64,000 nucleotides of DNA from Lachnospiraceae bacterium (lineage in GTDB: Bacteria; Bacillota; Clostridia; Lachnospirales; Lachnospiraceae), in the NCBI GenBank assembly GCA_017624235.1, contig JAGANL010000045.1, forward strand, positions 1-64,000. Reading direction: 5' to 3'. Under the pieces are notes generated by a model that made no database searches, was not told where the DNA came from, and saw only the letters and a program-made list of their open reading frames with translations. Positions 3,719 to 32,679 of this stretch are shown here, one piece after another (position 1 is the first letter of the stretch; every line of letters starts with the position of its first letter). Position numbers and translations under genes: made by a program.

Positions 3719-5212
3719 ATGAATTTTCCCGAACCTTATTTGTATGACAGATTAAAAGCATTGGCAGAGTCGGATTATTATCCGTACCATATGCCGGGAC
3801 ATAAACGAAATATGAAAGGGCGCCGTATGGACGCCCTTTATGAAATTGATATTACGGAAATTGATGAATTTGATAATCTGCATGCTCCAGAGGGTATCCT
3901 AAAGGATGCCATGAGGCGGGCAGCGGATTTTAATGGATCTGAGCATACTTATTTTCTGGTGAACGGAAGCAGCTGCGGTATACTTAGTGCATTGATGGCA
4001 TGTGCAGCAGGAGGCGGCAGAGTTCTCATGGGAAGAAATGCGCATAAATCTGCCTATCATGCTCTGTATCTCGGAGCGATGCAGCCGGTATATGTCATGC
4101 CTGAAATTGTGCGGGAATATGGGTTTCCGGGTGGAATCAGACCGGATAGGGTGCGCCTGTTGCTGGAGCGGGAAGAAAACATAGATGCAGTGTTTATCAC
4201 CTCTCCGACCTACGATGGAATATTGAGCGATATCAAAGAAATCGTTCGGATTGCGCACGAAAAAAAAATTCCTGTCATTGTAGATGAAGCGCATGGAGCA
4301 CATTTCCCACTGTTTTCGGAATATGAAACGGCGGTATCCTGTGGGGCGGATCTGGTTATCCAAAGTATACATAAGACTTTGCCGGCACCGACTCAGACAG
4401 CGTTGCTGCATGTGAACGGAACATTGGTGGATCGGGAAAAGGTGGAGCGTTATCTACAGATTTTTCAGACTTCGAGCCCTTCTTATGTGCTGATGAGCGG
4501 CATGGATGAATGTTTCCGCCTGTTGAAGGGGGAGGGAGCTGTACTGACAGAACGTTTTCGGGAGCGGCGAAGGATGTTTGATCACGGGATGCAGGGGTTG
4601 TCCTGTCTTCGGGTATATGGCGGCAAAGAGGATCGGAGTCTTTGGGCAAGCTATGGCATAAAGAACGTAGATATGGGAAAACTGGTCATATCTGCTAAGA
4701 ATATGCTAATAACCGGAAAAGAGCTTTACGAGAGACTGCGTATGAAGTATCATTTACAAATGGAGATGTCAACGCAGGCTTATGTACTGGCAATGTTGAC
4801 AATTCTGGACAGCCGGGAGGGCTGGAAACGTCTGGCAGAGGCAGTGATCCAGATTGACAGGGAGCTTTTAGAGGTATCCGGGGAAGGCTGTAGTATCAAT
4901 GAAGGACAGATGGAACAGAGGCGACGGCTTGGTGAGTTGTCCTGTTACGGGGAGAAAAATCCCGTCAGAATGCCTGTTTTTGCAGCGCAGAATGCAGAAA
5001 AGGAATGGATACCGATTGCAGAAGCGGAAGGAAGGATTGCGGCGGGAATGGTAAATCTGTATCCGCCCGGAGTTCCGATCCTGGTACCGGGAGAGGAAAT
5101 TATCGACGCCTTGATAGAATTTGCAGGAGGATGTCTGCAGGCAGGATTGAATTTACAGGGTATCTGCAATAAGGAAGAGGTGTTAATTCCTGTAGTACGG
5201 GAATTTCAATAA
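3719..5212 (+). CDS. Orn/Lys/Arg decarboxylase-type PLP enzyme
   Basis: A 497-residue fold-type I PLP enzyme of the SpeA/Orn-Lys-Arg decarboxylase group, which decarboxylates basic amino acids to polyamine precursors. Visible signatures are the N-terminal YHMPGHKRN, the substrate/cofactor segment FLVNGSSCGILSA, DEAHGAH with the cofactor Asp, and SIHKTLPAPTQ with the Schiff-base Lys at 219. The C-terminal decarboxylase domain ends with NLYPPGVPILVPGE. The length matches the short Bacillus SpeA type rather than the long inducible enterobacterial enzymes. Exact substrate (arginine, lysine or ornithine) cannot be decided from sequence. Confidence 0.88.
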   Translation: MNFPEPYLYDRLKALAESDYYPYHMPGHKRNMKGRRMDALYEIDITEIDEFDNLHAPEGILKDAMRRAADFNGSEHTYFLVNGSSCGILSALMACAAGGGRVLMGRNAHKSAYHALYLGAMQPVYVMPEIVREYGFPGGIRPDRVRLLLEREENIDAVFITSPTYDGILSDIKEIVRIAHEKKIPVIVDEAHGAHFPLFSEYETAVSCGADLVIQSIHKTLPAPTQTALLHVNGTLVDREKVERYLQIFQTSSPSYVLMSGMDECFRLLKGEGAVLTERFRERRRMFDHGMQGLSCLRVYGGKEDRSLWASYGIKNVDMGKLVISAKNMLITGKELYERLRMKYHLQMEMSTQAYVLAMLTILDSREGWKRLAEAVIQIDRELLEVSGEGCSINEGQMEQRRRLGELSCYGEKNPVRMPVFAAQNAEKEWIPIAEAEGRIAAGMVNLYPPGVPILVPGEEIIDALIEFAGGCLQAGLNLQGICNKEEVLIPVVREFQ

Positions 5213-6759: not shown

Positions 6760-8304
<1,545 letters not shown>

Positions 8305-8345
8305 AGGAATAGCTGTGATAAAAGTCGAAACAGGAGGTGAGAGCG

Positions 8346-8786
8346 GTGGATATCAGGGTCAATCAGGCTGCGCAGGCCAATCAGGTGGAGCAGCAGAGAC
8401 AGGCGGCACAGGCAGATGGAACCTTTAAATTTACGTTGGCAAGTCGTGTAGAGGAAGAAGGACTGCAGGCCCGTCTGAATCTGATGATGGAAGAAATAAC
8501 CAGACAGGGAGACCGTATTTCCAGAAAGATGGATATCCGGGATATGAAACGCTACCGGGGACTCATCAAAGAATTTATGAATGAGGTTGTAAGCCGTTCC
8601 CACTCATTTTCAAGAGAAAATTTTCTGGACAGGAGAGGCCGTCACAGGGTTTATGGAATCATACGTCTGGTGGATGAGACGTTGGATGAGCTGGCACAGG
8701 AGCTTGTAAAGGATGAAAAGGATCATATAGCGATTTTAAATAAAATTGGAGAAATCCGAGGACTGCTGTTAGATATTTTTACATGA
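8346..8786 (+). CDS. yaaR: YaaR-like protein (DUF327)
   Basis: A 146-residue, mostly helical, highly charged protein without membrane segments. It matches the YaaR/DUF327 family in length, the central helical R-x-Y-x-G-L-I-x-E-F-M pattern ([14 protein letters not shown]) and the C-terminal [13 protein letters not shown]. The Bacillus subtilis order is yaaR-holB-yaaT(ricT)-yabB, and the same order follows here, which strongly supports the call. Molecular role is not established. GTG 8346 is chosen because AGGAGGTGA ends 5 bases before it; GTG 8337 in frame lies inside that ribosome site. Confidence 0.88.
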
Positions 8787-28972: not shown

Positions 28973-29236
28973 TGATTTTGTAAAAAGTAAAATAAATATA
29001 AAATTAAAAATAAGAATTGACGGTATTAAGAATGGCCTGCTATAATAAAATAAAGCCAGTCATTCTAATGCACATCATTTCAGTTTATCTGTTTTCTAAT
29101 ATGTATCCGGTATATGGATACATTATCTGTTTTAGAATCCTTGCTTAAAATACCAATTTATTTCACAGCAGGGAAAAGCAGATCCATACCGATGGATGAG
29201 CAGAATTCCTGCATATTCAGAGGGAGGAAGAAAGCT

Positions 29237-30187
29237 ATGAATGTAACCAAAGAAGAAAGACAAACCTATGGAACCTACAAAGACCGTGTATTTCGTATGC
29301 TGTTTCAGAAAAAGGAAGCACTTTTGGAGCTGTATAATGCTTTGAATCAGACCGCTTATACGGATTTGGAAGCCTTGACAGTGAATACGCTGGATAATGC
29401 TATCTTTATTAAGATGCGGAATGATGTGTCGTTTATCATTGACTGCAATATGTGCTTATACGAGCACCAGTCCACCTATTGTCCTAATATGCCGCTACGT
29501 GGATTTTTCTATTTCGCTGATTTGTATAAGAAGCTGACAAAAGGAATTGATTTAAGTGTGCGAAAGCAGGTTAAAATTCCAACACCGCATTATCTGGTTT
29601 TTTATAACGGCATGGAACGGCAGGAGGAAGAGTATGTCCAACATTTATCGGATGCCTTTGCAGAGGGAAAGAATGGATGTATGGAATTGACTGTGCGGAC
29701 TCTTAATATCAATTTTGGACATAATCAGCAACTTTTGGAACAATGCAGGACTTTGTATGGATATGCTTATTTTGTGGCAGCGGTACGGAGAAATATGCAG
29801 ACGATGGAGATGCGGGAGGCTGTAGAGTCGGCCATAGATCAATGTATTCAGGCAGATATATTGCGGGAATTTCTGTCAGAGCAGAAGGCGGAGGTGGTAG
29901 CCATGTCAATTTATGAGTATAATGAAGAATATGTGCGAAAGACTTTTTTTGAAGAAGGAAGAGAGACAGGCTATGATGAAGGACTTGCCGATGGAGCGGA
30001 AAAGAAGCTGATTATTCAGATTTGTCGCAAGCTGCAAAAGGGAAAGACTCCAGAGCAGATTGCAGAAGAGTTGGATGAGGAGCTTTCCGATGTGAAGAGA
30101 ATATGCAGGGCGGCAGAAGCCTGCAGACCGTATTATGATTGTGATGCAATCTATGAAAGAATGAAAGGCACTGCGGTAAAAATTTAA
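29237..30187 (+). CDS. Rpn family recombination-promoting nuclease / PD-(D/E)XK transposase-like protein
   Basis: A 316-residue protein of the Rpn/transposase_31-like group common in multiple copies in Lachnospiraceae. The N-terminal YGTYKDRVFRMLFQKKEALLELYNAL is typical; a PD-(D/E)XK core is suggested by DVSFIIDCNMCLYEHQS, with the acidic residues preceding E-x-Q. The C-terminal region (EGRETGYDEGLADGAEK, then a charged helical end) matches the family tail. Whether it is an active nuclease is unknown. ATG 29237 follows GGGAGGAAG; upstream in-frame ATGs give a non-family extension. No inverted repeats flank it. Confidence 0.8.
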   Translation: MNVTKEERQTYGTYKDRVFRMLFQKKEALLELYNALNQTAYTDLEALTVNTLDNAIFIKMRNDVSFIIDCNMCLYEHQSTYCPNMPLRGFFYFADLYKKLTKGIDLSVRKQVKIPTPHYLVFYNGMERQEEEYVQHLSDAFAEGKNGCMELTVRTLNINFGHNQQLLEQCRTLYGYAYFVAAVRRNMQTMEMREAVESAIDQCIQADILREFLSEQKAEVVAMSIYEYNEEYVRKTFFEEGRETGYDEGLADGAEKKLIIQICRKLQKGKTPEQIAEELDEELSDVKRICRAAEACRPYYDCDAIYERMKGTAVKI

Positions 30188-30224: not shown

Positions 30225-30283
30225 AGTCTCGATTAGTGCATATTTATTCAATTTATTTCAGGAGCAGTAAGGAGGAGACTATT

Positions 30284-31135
30284 ATGAAGAACATGAAAAA
30301 AGTGGCAGCAGCGGTTTTAGCTGTATGTATGGCAGCATCCTTAACGGCATGTGGCAGTAAAGCACCGGCAGATACAGCAGCGCCGGCAGAGACAGAGGCT
30401 GCAGAGAGCACAGACGGAAGCGCAGCAGCGGTTGCCGGTGTAGATGACCTTCCGGGTAAGACAATCGGTGTGCAGCTTGGTACAACAGGTGATATCTATG
30501 CAAGTGATTACGAAGCAGAGGGTTCTACCATCGAGCGTTACAATAAGGGTGCGGATGCCGTTCAGGCATTAAAGCAGGGCAAGCTGGATTGTGTGATCAT
30601 CGATAATCAGCCGGCACAGGCCTTTGTGGAAAAGAACGATGACTTAAAGATTCTGGATGAAGAATTTGCAGTAGAGGATTATGCCATCTGCATTTCCAAG
30701 GATAATAAGGAGCTGACAGAAGCAATTAACGGCGCTCTGGCAGAGTTAAAGGCAGAAGGAATCTTGGACAGTATTATTGCAAACTACATCGGGGATGATA
30801 CCAAGGGACAGTCTCCGTATGTTTCTCCGGAAGGAGTGGATCGTTCCAACGGTACACTGACCATGGCTACCAATGCAGCTTTTGAGCCGTATGAGTACTA
30901 TGATGGAGATAAAGTAGTCGGTATTGATGCAGATATGGCACAGGCCGTATGTGACAAGTTAGGCTATGAGCTGAAAATTGAGGATATGGAGTTTGATTCC
31001 ATCATCAATGCAGTACAGTCCGGTAAGGCAGATATGGGTGTAGCAGGTATGACGGTAACTGAGGATCGTCTGACCAGCGTAGATTTTACAGAGCCTTACA
31101 CTACAGCAAAACAGGTTATCATTGTAAGAAAATAG
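30284..31135 (+). CDS. circularly permuted amino-acid ABC transporter substrate-binding lipoprotein
   Basis: A 283-residue lipoprotein (lipobox LTAC, Cys about residue 23) followed by a Ala/Glu-rich linker. The SBP_bac_3 fold is present but in swapped order. The half that normally follows the hinge (DDLPGKTIGVQLGTTGD to AELKAEGILDSIIANYIG) comes first; the half that normally begins the mature protein (GTLTMATNAAFEPYEYYDG to VDFTEPYTTAKQVIIVRK) comes last, and the protein ends at the hinge. A short linker (about residues 181-198) joins the old C- and N-termini. Both lobes look complete. Permease and ATPase genes of the polar amino-acid type follow after an attenuating hairpin. AAGGAGGAG precedes the ATG. 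Confidence 0.92.
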   Translation: MKNMKKVAAAVLAVCMAASLTACGSKAPADTAAPAETEAAESTDGSAAAVAGVDDLPGKTIGVQLGTTGDIYASDYEAEGSTIERYNKGADAVQALKQGKLDCVIIDNQPAQAFVEKNDDLKILDEEFAVEDYAICISKDNKELTEAINGALAELKAEGILDSIIANYIGDDTKGQSPYVSPEGVDRSNGTLTMATNAAFEPYEYYDGDKVVGIDADMAQAVCDKLGYELKIEDMEFDSIINAVQSGKADMGVAGMTVTEDRLTSVDFTEPYTTAKQVIIVRK

Positions 31136-31197: not shown

Positions 31198-31244
31198 GTA
31201 ACGGAAAAGATTTTTGTATTACAGTCGGAGAAGGAGTGAATCAA

Positions 31245-31931
31245 GTGAGTGATTTTCAGCTGAAATTTTACACGAACTTTATTAAGGAAGACAGATATCT
31301 TTATCTGTTAAAGGGATTGGGGAATACGCTTATCATTACGCTGTTTGCGGTCATTATCGGTGTAGTACTTGGTTTTCTGGTAGCTATCATACGCTCGACC
31401 TATGCCAAGACGGGTAAGCTGAAGCTGTTAAATACACTCTGCGGCATTTACCTGACGGTCATCCGGGGTACACCGATGATGATTCAGCTCATGATTATGT
31501 TTTATGTTGTATTCGTAAGCTCCAATAATAAGATACTGGTAGCTGTCATAGCCTTCGGTATCAACTCCGGCGCTTATGTGGCAGAGATTGTCCGCTCCGG
31601 TATCATGTCCATCGACCAGGGACAGTTTGAGGCGGGCAGGAGCCTTGGTTTCAGTTATCCGCAGACCATGTGGTACATCATTATGCCGCAGGCATTCAAG
31701 AATGTTCTTCCGGCCCTGGCAAATGAGTTTATCGTGCTTTTGAAGGAGACGTCCATCTGCGGTTATATCGGTCTGATGGATTTGACCAGAGGCGGCGATA
31801 TTATCCGCAGCCGTACTTATGAGGCATTCATGCCCCTTATTGCGGTTGCAATTATTTACCTGATTATGGTAGTAGGGCTGACGGCCCTTGTCGGAAAGCT
31901 GGAAAGGAGGCTGCGTGCGAGTGAGCGATAA
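31245..31931 (+). CDS. polar amino-acid ABC transporter permease
   Basis: A 228-residue inner-membrane permease of the His/Glu/Gln/Arg family. Visible features are [20 protein letters not shown] near the start, [18 protein letters not shown], and the EAA-loop-like coupling motif [22 protein letters not shown]. About five helices. GTG 31245 is preferred because AAGGAG lies 8 bases upstream; GTG 31236 is inside it. The end overlaps the ATPase gene by 11 bases. Confidence 0.94.
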
Positions 31932-32679
31932 CAAGGAAATCAAGAACGGAGACGTTTTATTTGAAATAGAGCATTTACAGAAAAACTTCGGAGATCTTCA
32001 GGTTCTGAATGATATATCCACGAAAATCAGAAAAGGTGAGGTTGTGGTAATCGTAGGGCCATCCGGTTCCGGTAAATCGACCTTCTTACGTTCTCTGAAT
32101 TTGCTGGAGGAGCCGACGGGCGGTGTCATTAAGTTCGAGGGACGTGATATTACAGATAAGCATTCCAATATCAACCTGTATCGGCAGAAAATCGGTATGG
32201 TATTCCAGCATTTTAACCTTTTCCCTCATAAGACCATTTTGGAAAATATGACTTTAGCGCCAATCAAGCTGTTGAAGATACCAAAAGCAGATGCGGAAAA
32301 GGAAGCCATGGAGCTGTTGGAGCGTGTCGGCCTGACAGAGAAGGCGGAGGCATATCCCAGCCAGTTATCGGGCGGGCAGAAGCAGCGTATCGCTATCGTG
32401 CGTGCACTTTGCATGCACCCTGATGTCATTTTGTTTGATGAGCCGACTTCTGCGTTGGATCCGGAAATGGTAGGAGAGGTTCTGAATGTTATGGCCGATC
32501 TGGCCAGAGAGGGGATGACCATGGTTATAGTGACTCACGAGATGGGCTTTGCCAGGGAAGTGGGTACGAGGGTCATGTTTGTGGATGAAGGCCAGATCAA
32601 AGAAGAAAATACACCGCAGGAATTTTTTGCGAATCCGAAGAATGAACGTCTGCAGGAGTTTTTGTCTAAAATTATATAA
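31921..32679 (+). CDS. polar amino-acid ABC transporter ATP-binding protein
   Basis: A 252-residue ABC ATPase of the GlnQ/HisP type. Walker A is GPSGSGKST, the Q-loop is in [13 protein letters not shown], the signature [15 protein letters not shown], Walker [16 protein letters not shown] and the switch His in [12 protein letters not shown] 31921 is chosen with AGGAGG at 31905-31910. It overlaps the permease stop, so the two are coupled. Substrate probably a polar amino acid, but the permuted binding protein prevents a closer call. Confidence 0.95.

Follow-up and report, generated by a model that had tools for sequence, protein, structure and literature searches.

A gene for a solute-binding protein of the SBP_bac_3 family, found in a 64,000-nucleotide stretch of DNA from a Lachnospiraceae bacterium (hereafter the window), raises the question of how such a protein can carry its two halves in the reverse of the usual order, how the arrangement came about, and what it changes for the importer to which the protein belongs. 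Our analysis makes it very likely that the gene product, P0001, is a lipid-anchored subunit of a polar-amino-acid importer that was circularly permuted by way of duplication, at a cut that has been used recurrently.

The permuted gene heads an ordinary importer operon

The gene is an uninterrupted frame of 283 codons plus a stop codon at window positions 30284-31135 on the forward strand, and it reads as a lipoprotein, with the start ATG at 30284 and the stop at 31133-31135. It heads an operon of binding protein, permease, and ATPase, in which the 5′ end of the ATPase gene overlaps the 3′ end of the permease gene. The features are as follows.

30270..30275, forward strand: Shine-Dalgarno sequence AGGAGG, read directly, 8 bases ahead of the ATG
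30284..31135, forward strand: circularly permuted SBP_bac_3 lipoprotein, 283 aa, arranged D2-linker-D1 (the order termed CP1); from profile, GlnH alignment, rotation test, and AlphaFold2
30284..30352, forward strand: lipoprotein signal peptide with lipobox LTAC and lipidated Cys23; motif recognized by eye
30425..30799, forward strand: D2 half, residues 48-172; from GlnH alignment and profile segments
30668..30682, forward strand: hinge strand 2, residues 129-133, equivalent to GlnBP 181-185, intact; from GlnH alignment, with limits from the available part of PMC7400645
30800..30847, forward strand: new linker (residues 173-188) bridging the former C- and N-termini; from ORF comparison, rotation test, and pLDDT
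30848..31132, forward strand: D1 half, residues 189-283; from Pfam profile and GlnH alignment
31236..31931, forward strand: ordinary permease (BPD_transp_1, HEQRo_perm_3TM); from ORF list and Pfam and NCBIfam profiles
31918..32679, forward strand: ordinary ATPase (ABC_tran, GlnQ-like), its start picked by eye within the ORF 31888-32679; from ORF list and Pfam and NCBIfam profiles

The profile searches thus agree with a preliminary description of this locus, which had called the permease and the ATPase ordinary. Directly upstream of the operon lies a 357-aa frame (29114-30187, forward strand) to which no Pfam family aligns at E ≤ 0.001. In the same genome, four further SBP_bac_3 genes (L001, L002, L003, and L005) match the family profile in one normal-order run.

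Two intact halves stand in reversed order

In P0001, the part starting VDDLPGKTIGVQLGTTGD comes first and the part starting GTLTMATNAAFEPYEY comes second. The leading D2 half corresponds to the C-terminal half of GlnH, comprising the larger part of lobe 2 together with hinge strand 2 and the C-terminal helices that belong to lobe 1, and the trailing D1 half corresponds to the mature N-terminal half, comprising lobe 1, hinge strand 1 (residues 272-276), and the strand with which lobe 2 begins. The Pfam SBP_bac_3 profile (PF00497) is matched at 120.6 bits, with a cut-off of 26.4, in two stretches of reversed order rather than linearly. Specifically, the best stretch places residues 192-283 on profile positions 1-92, and, in the genome search, window positions 30614-30793 (residues ~111-170) match profile positions 86-131 upstream of the 1-92 part. 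The chains of AncQR and TmArgBP likewise align in two reverse-order stretches in the printed PDB alignments. When all 236 circular rotations of residues 48-283 were scored against Escherichia coli GlnH, the rotations starting at residues 187-192 came out on top with a score of 286, compared with 183 for the native order and a median of 215. Altogether, the profile stretches and the rotations confirm what the preliminary description had read from the sequence, that both SBP_bac_3 halves are intact and reversed, and they support its reading of a circular permutation in which the old ends are joined through a new linker.

The other Pfam matches of P0001 at E ≤ 0.001 are Lig_chan-Glu_bd and Phosphonate-bd, the latter below its cut-off. 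None of the NCBIfam models TIGR01096, GlnH, ArtJ, HisJ, and cystine SBP reaches its curated cut-off on P0001; TIGR01096 comes closest (138.9 vs 256.35), and GlnH scores 108 vs 303.

The cut lies within lobe 2 and leaves both hinge crossings intact

The hinge of GlnBP is formed by residues 85-89 and 181-185, with residues 90-180 as the small lobe, according to the available part of PMC7400645. By the GlnH alignment, these hinge strands correspond to P0001 residues 272-276 and 129-133, respectively. The chain of P0001 ends at about GlnBP 95-98, and its D2 half begins at about GlnBP 99-101, which puts the cut inside lobe 2, 6-9 residues beyond hinge strand 1. The preliminary description had the gene ending right at the hinge, which is corrected by this mapping, and had suggested that hinge motion could differ; because both hinge crossings are intact, such a change is not implied. 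Mapping onto GlnBP likewise led us to reject a reading in which the cut would delete one of the two crossings between the lobes. Since the cut falls within lobe 2, both crossings survive and the tethered end shifts from lobe 1 to lobe 2. As far as the alignment indicates, this relocation of the tether point is the more direct consequence of the permutation.

The old ends that the linker joins both sat on lobe 1. The linker is 15-16 residues long in 112 of 131 ORFs, some loci being counted repeatedly, and its Tyr179 is identical in 81 of 81 rows of alignment A2.

A single two-lobed fold is predicted, with the amino-acid contacts kept

Using 81 natural permuted sequences, AlphaFold2 predicted P0001 with a mean pLDDT of 89.8 and a pTM of 0.79. 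Blocks from residue 51 onward have pLDDT values of 94-99, including the linker (94 for block 171-180 and 97 for block 181-190), and 43 residues fall below 70. A single-sequence prediction was poor (mean pLDDT 46.7) and was discarded. The structure prediction proposed in the preliminary description therefore yields a confident model, from which we infer one bilobed fold; this two-lobed shape draws on confidence scores, secondary structure, and homology. Foldseek, a sequential aligner, returned the tandem 6h30 as its first PDB match and no TMq above 0.45 among the 50 matches listed, which is expected if no solved chain has the permuted order. Searching with the permuted profile, we found 65 distinct PDB sequences at E ≤ 1e-20, of which 60 were listed. 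Among the top stretches in that listing and the five alignments shown in full, the tandem 6h30 alone runs through the permuted order without a break.

The GlnBP ligand contacts G68, T70, R75, G119, and D157, as named in the available part of PMC7400645, align with P0001 G255, T257, R262, G69, and D107, so that the alpha-amino-acid contacts of GlnBP are all kept in the sequence. Asp107 and Arg262 are invariant in 19 of 19 rows of alignment A1 and in 81 of 81 rows of A2, and Asn197, Phe200, and Tyr272 are also invariant in the 19 rows of A1. A2, unlike A1, was gathered with sequence patterns, and the invariance of the GVQxxTTGD residues in A2 is therefore biased.

The permuted order is widespread among relatives

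Matches that span the junction of P0001 at ≥50% identity occur in 12 of 61 genomes, the window's own included. Across the sampled family, junction-spanning matches were found in at least 81 of 397 genomes, again including its own; this lower bound counts rows with E ≤ 1e-57 in the family search and excludes G220 (a normal-order tandem), G192 (where a contig end cuts the match), and the weaker matches G227:C49, G105, G419, and G234. Such a locus was fetched and mapped in 44 of these 81 genomes, with D2 ahead of D1, and for the remaining 37 the order was deduced from a single junction-spanning match. A frame of ≥490 aa, long enough for a fusion to the permease, is present in 26 of the 81. Farther out, 40 of 392 genomes of the order sample match P0001 at E ≤ 1e-45 (a count that takes in the window's own genome and the normal-order tandem G220), as do 4 of 398 genomes of the phylum sample at E ≤ 1e-35 (its own included).

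Among named relatives, the best 80 of 538 in the contig scan all have D2 before D1, a proportion that should not be read as a frequency, since the scan sorted the relatives by their similarity to P0001 (a single assembly contributes both L149 and L150, and some loci duplicate genome-sample records). All 80 loci translate without a stop; the stretches contain the permease in 80 cases and the ATPase in 77. Carriers of CP1 include Kineothrix sp. MSJ-39, Parasporobacterium paucivorans DSM 15970, Roseburia hominis An869, Blautia schinkii DSM 10518, Ruminococcus bromii YE282, and Ruminococcus sp. FMBCY1, the last with a complete chromosome; the complete chromosome NZ_CP074197 carries the CP1 order. 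The genome survey that the preliminary description had called for has thus returned the same order in at least 81 family genomes, in named isolates, and on a complete chromosome, and a rearrangement confined to the window's genome, which would have spoken against its reading, was looked for and is ruled out by the many carriers. A search of plasmids gave one weak match, 30.6% identical, from E. faecalis, annotated as substrate-binding protein/permease.

Some records stood out. Those of L143 and L166 are titled uncultured Bacteroides and Methanocorpusculum and contain a Clostridia-type operon; they are probably mis-binned contigs. For L051, L052, L091, and L092, the profile match to the first D2 part is broken in two, which would fit a small insertion of residues there.

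The permutation arose at least twice

A second permuted protein, P0002 of genome G794 (same phylum and, by its kinship label, a different class), has the D2-D1 order and is 35% identical to P0001. Its nearest relatives among the 61 genomes are of normal order; that of G830, from the same family as G794, is 77% identical in D2 and 79% in D1. At the DNA level, the flanks of the two loci are colinear on both sides (68-84%) and the halves are swapped inside the gene: G830 positions 3872-4131 correspond to G794 positions 8486-8745, and G830 4156-4524 to G794 8059-8427 (coordinates of loci L226 and L229, respectively), with DNA identities of 80.8% for D1 and 70.5% for D2. In the stretches fetched for G794 (L229) and G830 (L226), no ATPase was found alongside the genes for the permease and the binding protein. 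G794 is the only genome seen to carry its permutation.

In a 92-row tree built with the halves in one order, a single clade of the 24 CP1 rows is rejected (log-likelihood lower by 271, p-AU 9.7e-58), and one clade is still rejected for the 22 CP1 rows that remain without L022 and L191 (log-likelihood lower by 247, p-AU 3.1e-6). Without G794 and its kin, a single CP1 origin is not rejected (p-AU 0.34). The tree test and the synteny therefore establish that CP1 arose independently at least two times. Further origins are likely. The starred branches of the 92-row tree force at least three CP1 changes; L022, L073/L074/L084, and L191 may be additional origins and were not counted. A permease tree, in which the CP1 permeases were thinned at random, lacks the resolution needed to date the swap in the main group.

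Duplicate rows were removed (L004, L010, L023, L030, and L050), L006 was unclassifiable and left out, and rows were thinned by identity ahead of the trees. The 92-row tree excludes L001-L003, L005, L007, L072, L073, tandem units, and L217, and its CP1 rows were reduced to 24 (18 random and 6 named). The tree that gave p-AU 0.34 excludes L001-L003, L005, L007, L072-L074, L084, and one L162 unit. The random thinning of CP1 permeases applies to the permease AU test as well.

Fusions, tandems, and a second cut position

The 80 best named loci comprise 57 separate genes, 21 single permuted domains fused to the permease, one double fusion (L139), and one triple fusion (L162). The latter two have the arrangements (D2-D1)x2-TMD and (D2-D1)x3-TMD, so that permuted domains are fused to a permease in tandem. 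The normal order occurs in tandem too: G220 encodes a 973-aa frame (L067, 2913-5831, reverse strand) of the form (D1-D2)x3-TMD, whose domains are very similar to one another, and which looks like a recent duplication. A 1,149-aa frame of G013 (L084, 4088-7534, forward strand) joins a pair of D2-D1 units to a permease and an ATPase (SBP_bac_3, BPD_transp_1, and ABC_tran), apparently a whole importer in one predicted chain. In G234 (L069, 2892-4485, forward strand), a CP1-permease gene lies in two overlapping frames, a split that is apparently due to a frameshift.

A second permuted order, CP2, runs D2b-D1-D2a and was found at nine distinct loci:

L023/L080, L031, L032, L034-L037, L070, L071: CP2 loci

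By the GlnH alignment, its cut lies near P0001 residue 120, in a loop of lobe 2. One CP2 origin is not rejected (AU p 0.485, and 0.386 on permeases), and starred branches in the trees force two CP2 changes; CP2 is perhaps of two origins.

Duplication as the proposed route, weighed against other explanations

We propose that unequal exchange would have produced a tandem D1-D2-D1-D2, often fused to the permease, and that loss of the outer D1 and the outer D2 would have left D2-D1, with a new linker that perhaps descends from the inter-domain linker of the tandem. Of the possible routes, this one fits best, given that permease-fused tandem domains exist in both orders; tandem forms were found among the relatives in G220, L139, and L162. 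Likewise, both halves are homologous to one normal-order gene, as seen in the GlnH alignment and in the comparison of G794 with G830. The preliminary description had already suggested that a duplicated ancestor lost its outer halves. The route it proposed is the one that fits best, and the ancestor itself was not observed: a tandem gene that could be the direct parent of the P0001 gene was not found in the sample of fetched loci. The resulting chain would fold as a single two-lobed Venus-flytrap protein and would, as GlnH does, bind an alpha-amino acid in the pocket typical of the family before passing it to the permease homodimer. Its anchor would sit on lobe 2 rather than lobe 1, and in the fused relatives the C-terminus, which is in lobe 2, would run straight into the permease.

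The same fetched loci, by yielding no duplicated direct parent, leave some room for D2 and D1 having come from two different binding-protein genes joined by recombination; for TpMglB-2, the authors of the work considered another gene as a possible source of its permuted part (available part of PMC4990184). We regard this as unlikely, because both halves of the G794 protein are nearest to one and the same G830 gene (77% and 79%) at a syntenic locus, because normal-order relatives match both halves of P0001 (70% in D1 and 59% in D2 for G028, and 73% and 60% for G233), and because tandems exist in both orders. Even more improbable is that the halves of one chain stay unpaired, giving a domain-swapped dimer or two loosely joined domains. 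Swapping would be favored by the shortness of the new linker, the two-lobed shape is drawn from confidence scores, and TmArgBP, a close solved relative, forms swapped dimers. Against it, the pTM is 0.79 over the whole chain despite the 43 low-scoring residues, the linker is predicted at pLDDT 94-97, and its length varies little (14-16 residues for 123 of the 131 ORFs, with some loci entering more than once).

The direction of change could also be the opposite, with the Lachnospirales group starting from the swapped order and its sister genes having reverted to the normal one. A tree that contains long outgroup rows points this way, as it puts the nearest normal-order genes with seven CP1 rows (support 87/96), amid CP1 branches. 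Without the long rows, however, 50 of 51 CP1 rows fall on one side of a branch with support 90/77, and both the SBP_bac_3 profile and the solved single-domain chains whose alignments were shown have the normal order, which leaves a reversal with little probability. As for an assembly or gene-model artefact, the window's genome is indeed a draft of 51 contigs that is 80% complete, but the order recurs in junction-spanning matches of at least 81 of 397 family genomes, in the named isolates, and on NZ_CP074197, and none of the 80 named matches is interrupted by a stop. We give this explanation practically no weight: being common in relatives and having an independent second origin, the permutation is a real evolutionary event and not a sequencing error. 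We thus retain the reading of a duplication whose outer halves were later lost.

Relation to known binding proteins and significance

Both halves of P0001 align with proteins of the GlnH/HisJ/ArtJ type (SBP_bac_3, TIGR01096; AncQR 4zv1, TmArgBP 6svf, and GlnBP 1ggg/1wdn), with which it shares the alpha-amino-acid contacts, both hinge strands, and the operon type. It differs from them in the reversed halves, in the chain end, which lies in lobe 2 rather than lobe 1, in the extra conserved linker, and in the replacement of GlnBP D10, K115, and H156 by N197, Q64, and I106. In the tandem GlnP of Lactococcus lactis (SBD1-SBD2, 6h30), D2 of SBD1 and D1 of SBD2 match the permuted profile in one stretch, which shows how a tandem already contains the permuted order; here D2 and D1 belong to two separate complete domains.

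Natural permutation of a lipid-anchored ABC binding protein is also represented by TpMglB-2 (Tp0684; Type Ic/Cluster Bc) of Treponema pallidum. According to the available part of PMC4990184, ligand binding and conformational change have been demonstrated for this protein, and its authors named the class Type Ic, described relatives in Gram-positive, often gut, bacteria, and raised a possible adaptation to anchoring. TpMglB-2 differs from P0001 in its sugar-binding Type I fold, a cut in the N-lobe, a fourth hinge crossing, and its protein family; P0001 does not match a Type I sugar-binding family, its Pfam matches at E ≤ 0.001 being confined to SBP_bac_3, Lig_chan-Glu_bd, and, below its cut-off, Phosphonate-bd. 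Similarly, "inversed" lobes are reported for OpuAC-related glycine-betaine proteins, also from ABC importers (Smits 2008 and Wolters 2010, cited through the available part of PMC5818414), and they belong to the betaine family, unlike P0001. No report of permuted SBP_bac_3 proteins appeared among the matches listed for the open-access literature searched.

The permutation at the syntenic locus of G794 and G830, whose proteins are 77-79% identical, together with tandems in both orders, makes a natural test system, which could be used to study the choice of the tethered lobe and the way in which duplication leads to permutation, and to develop amino-acid sensors based on permutants. Order-dependent annotation sees only partial matches in what is a common transporter component of gut bacteria. 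More tentatively, the permutation may be a recurrent and selected switch in the amino-acid importers of Clostridia and their kin, one that tethers lobe 2 and leaves hinge and pocket untouched, a possibility that we consider doubtful at present. If it is true, duplication beside, or fused to, the permease would repeatedly move the tether to lobe 2 through two different cut loops, both of them in that lobe.
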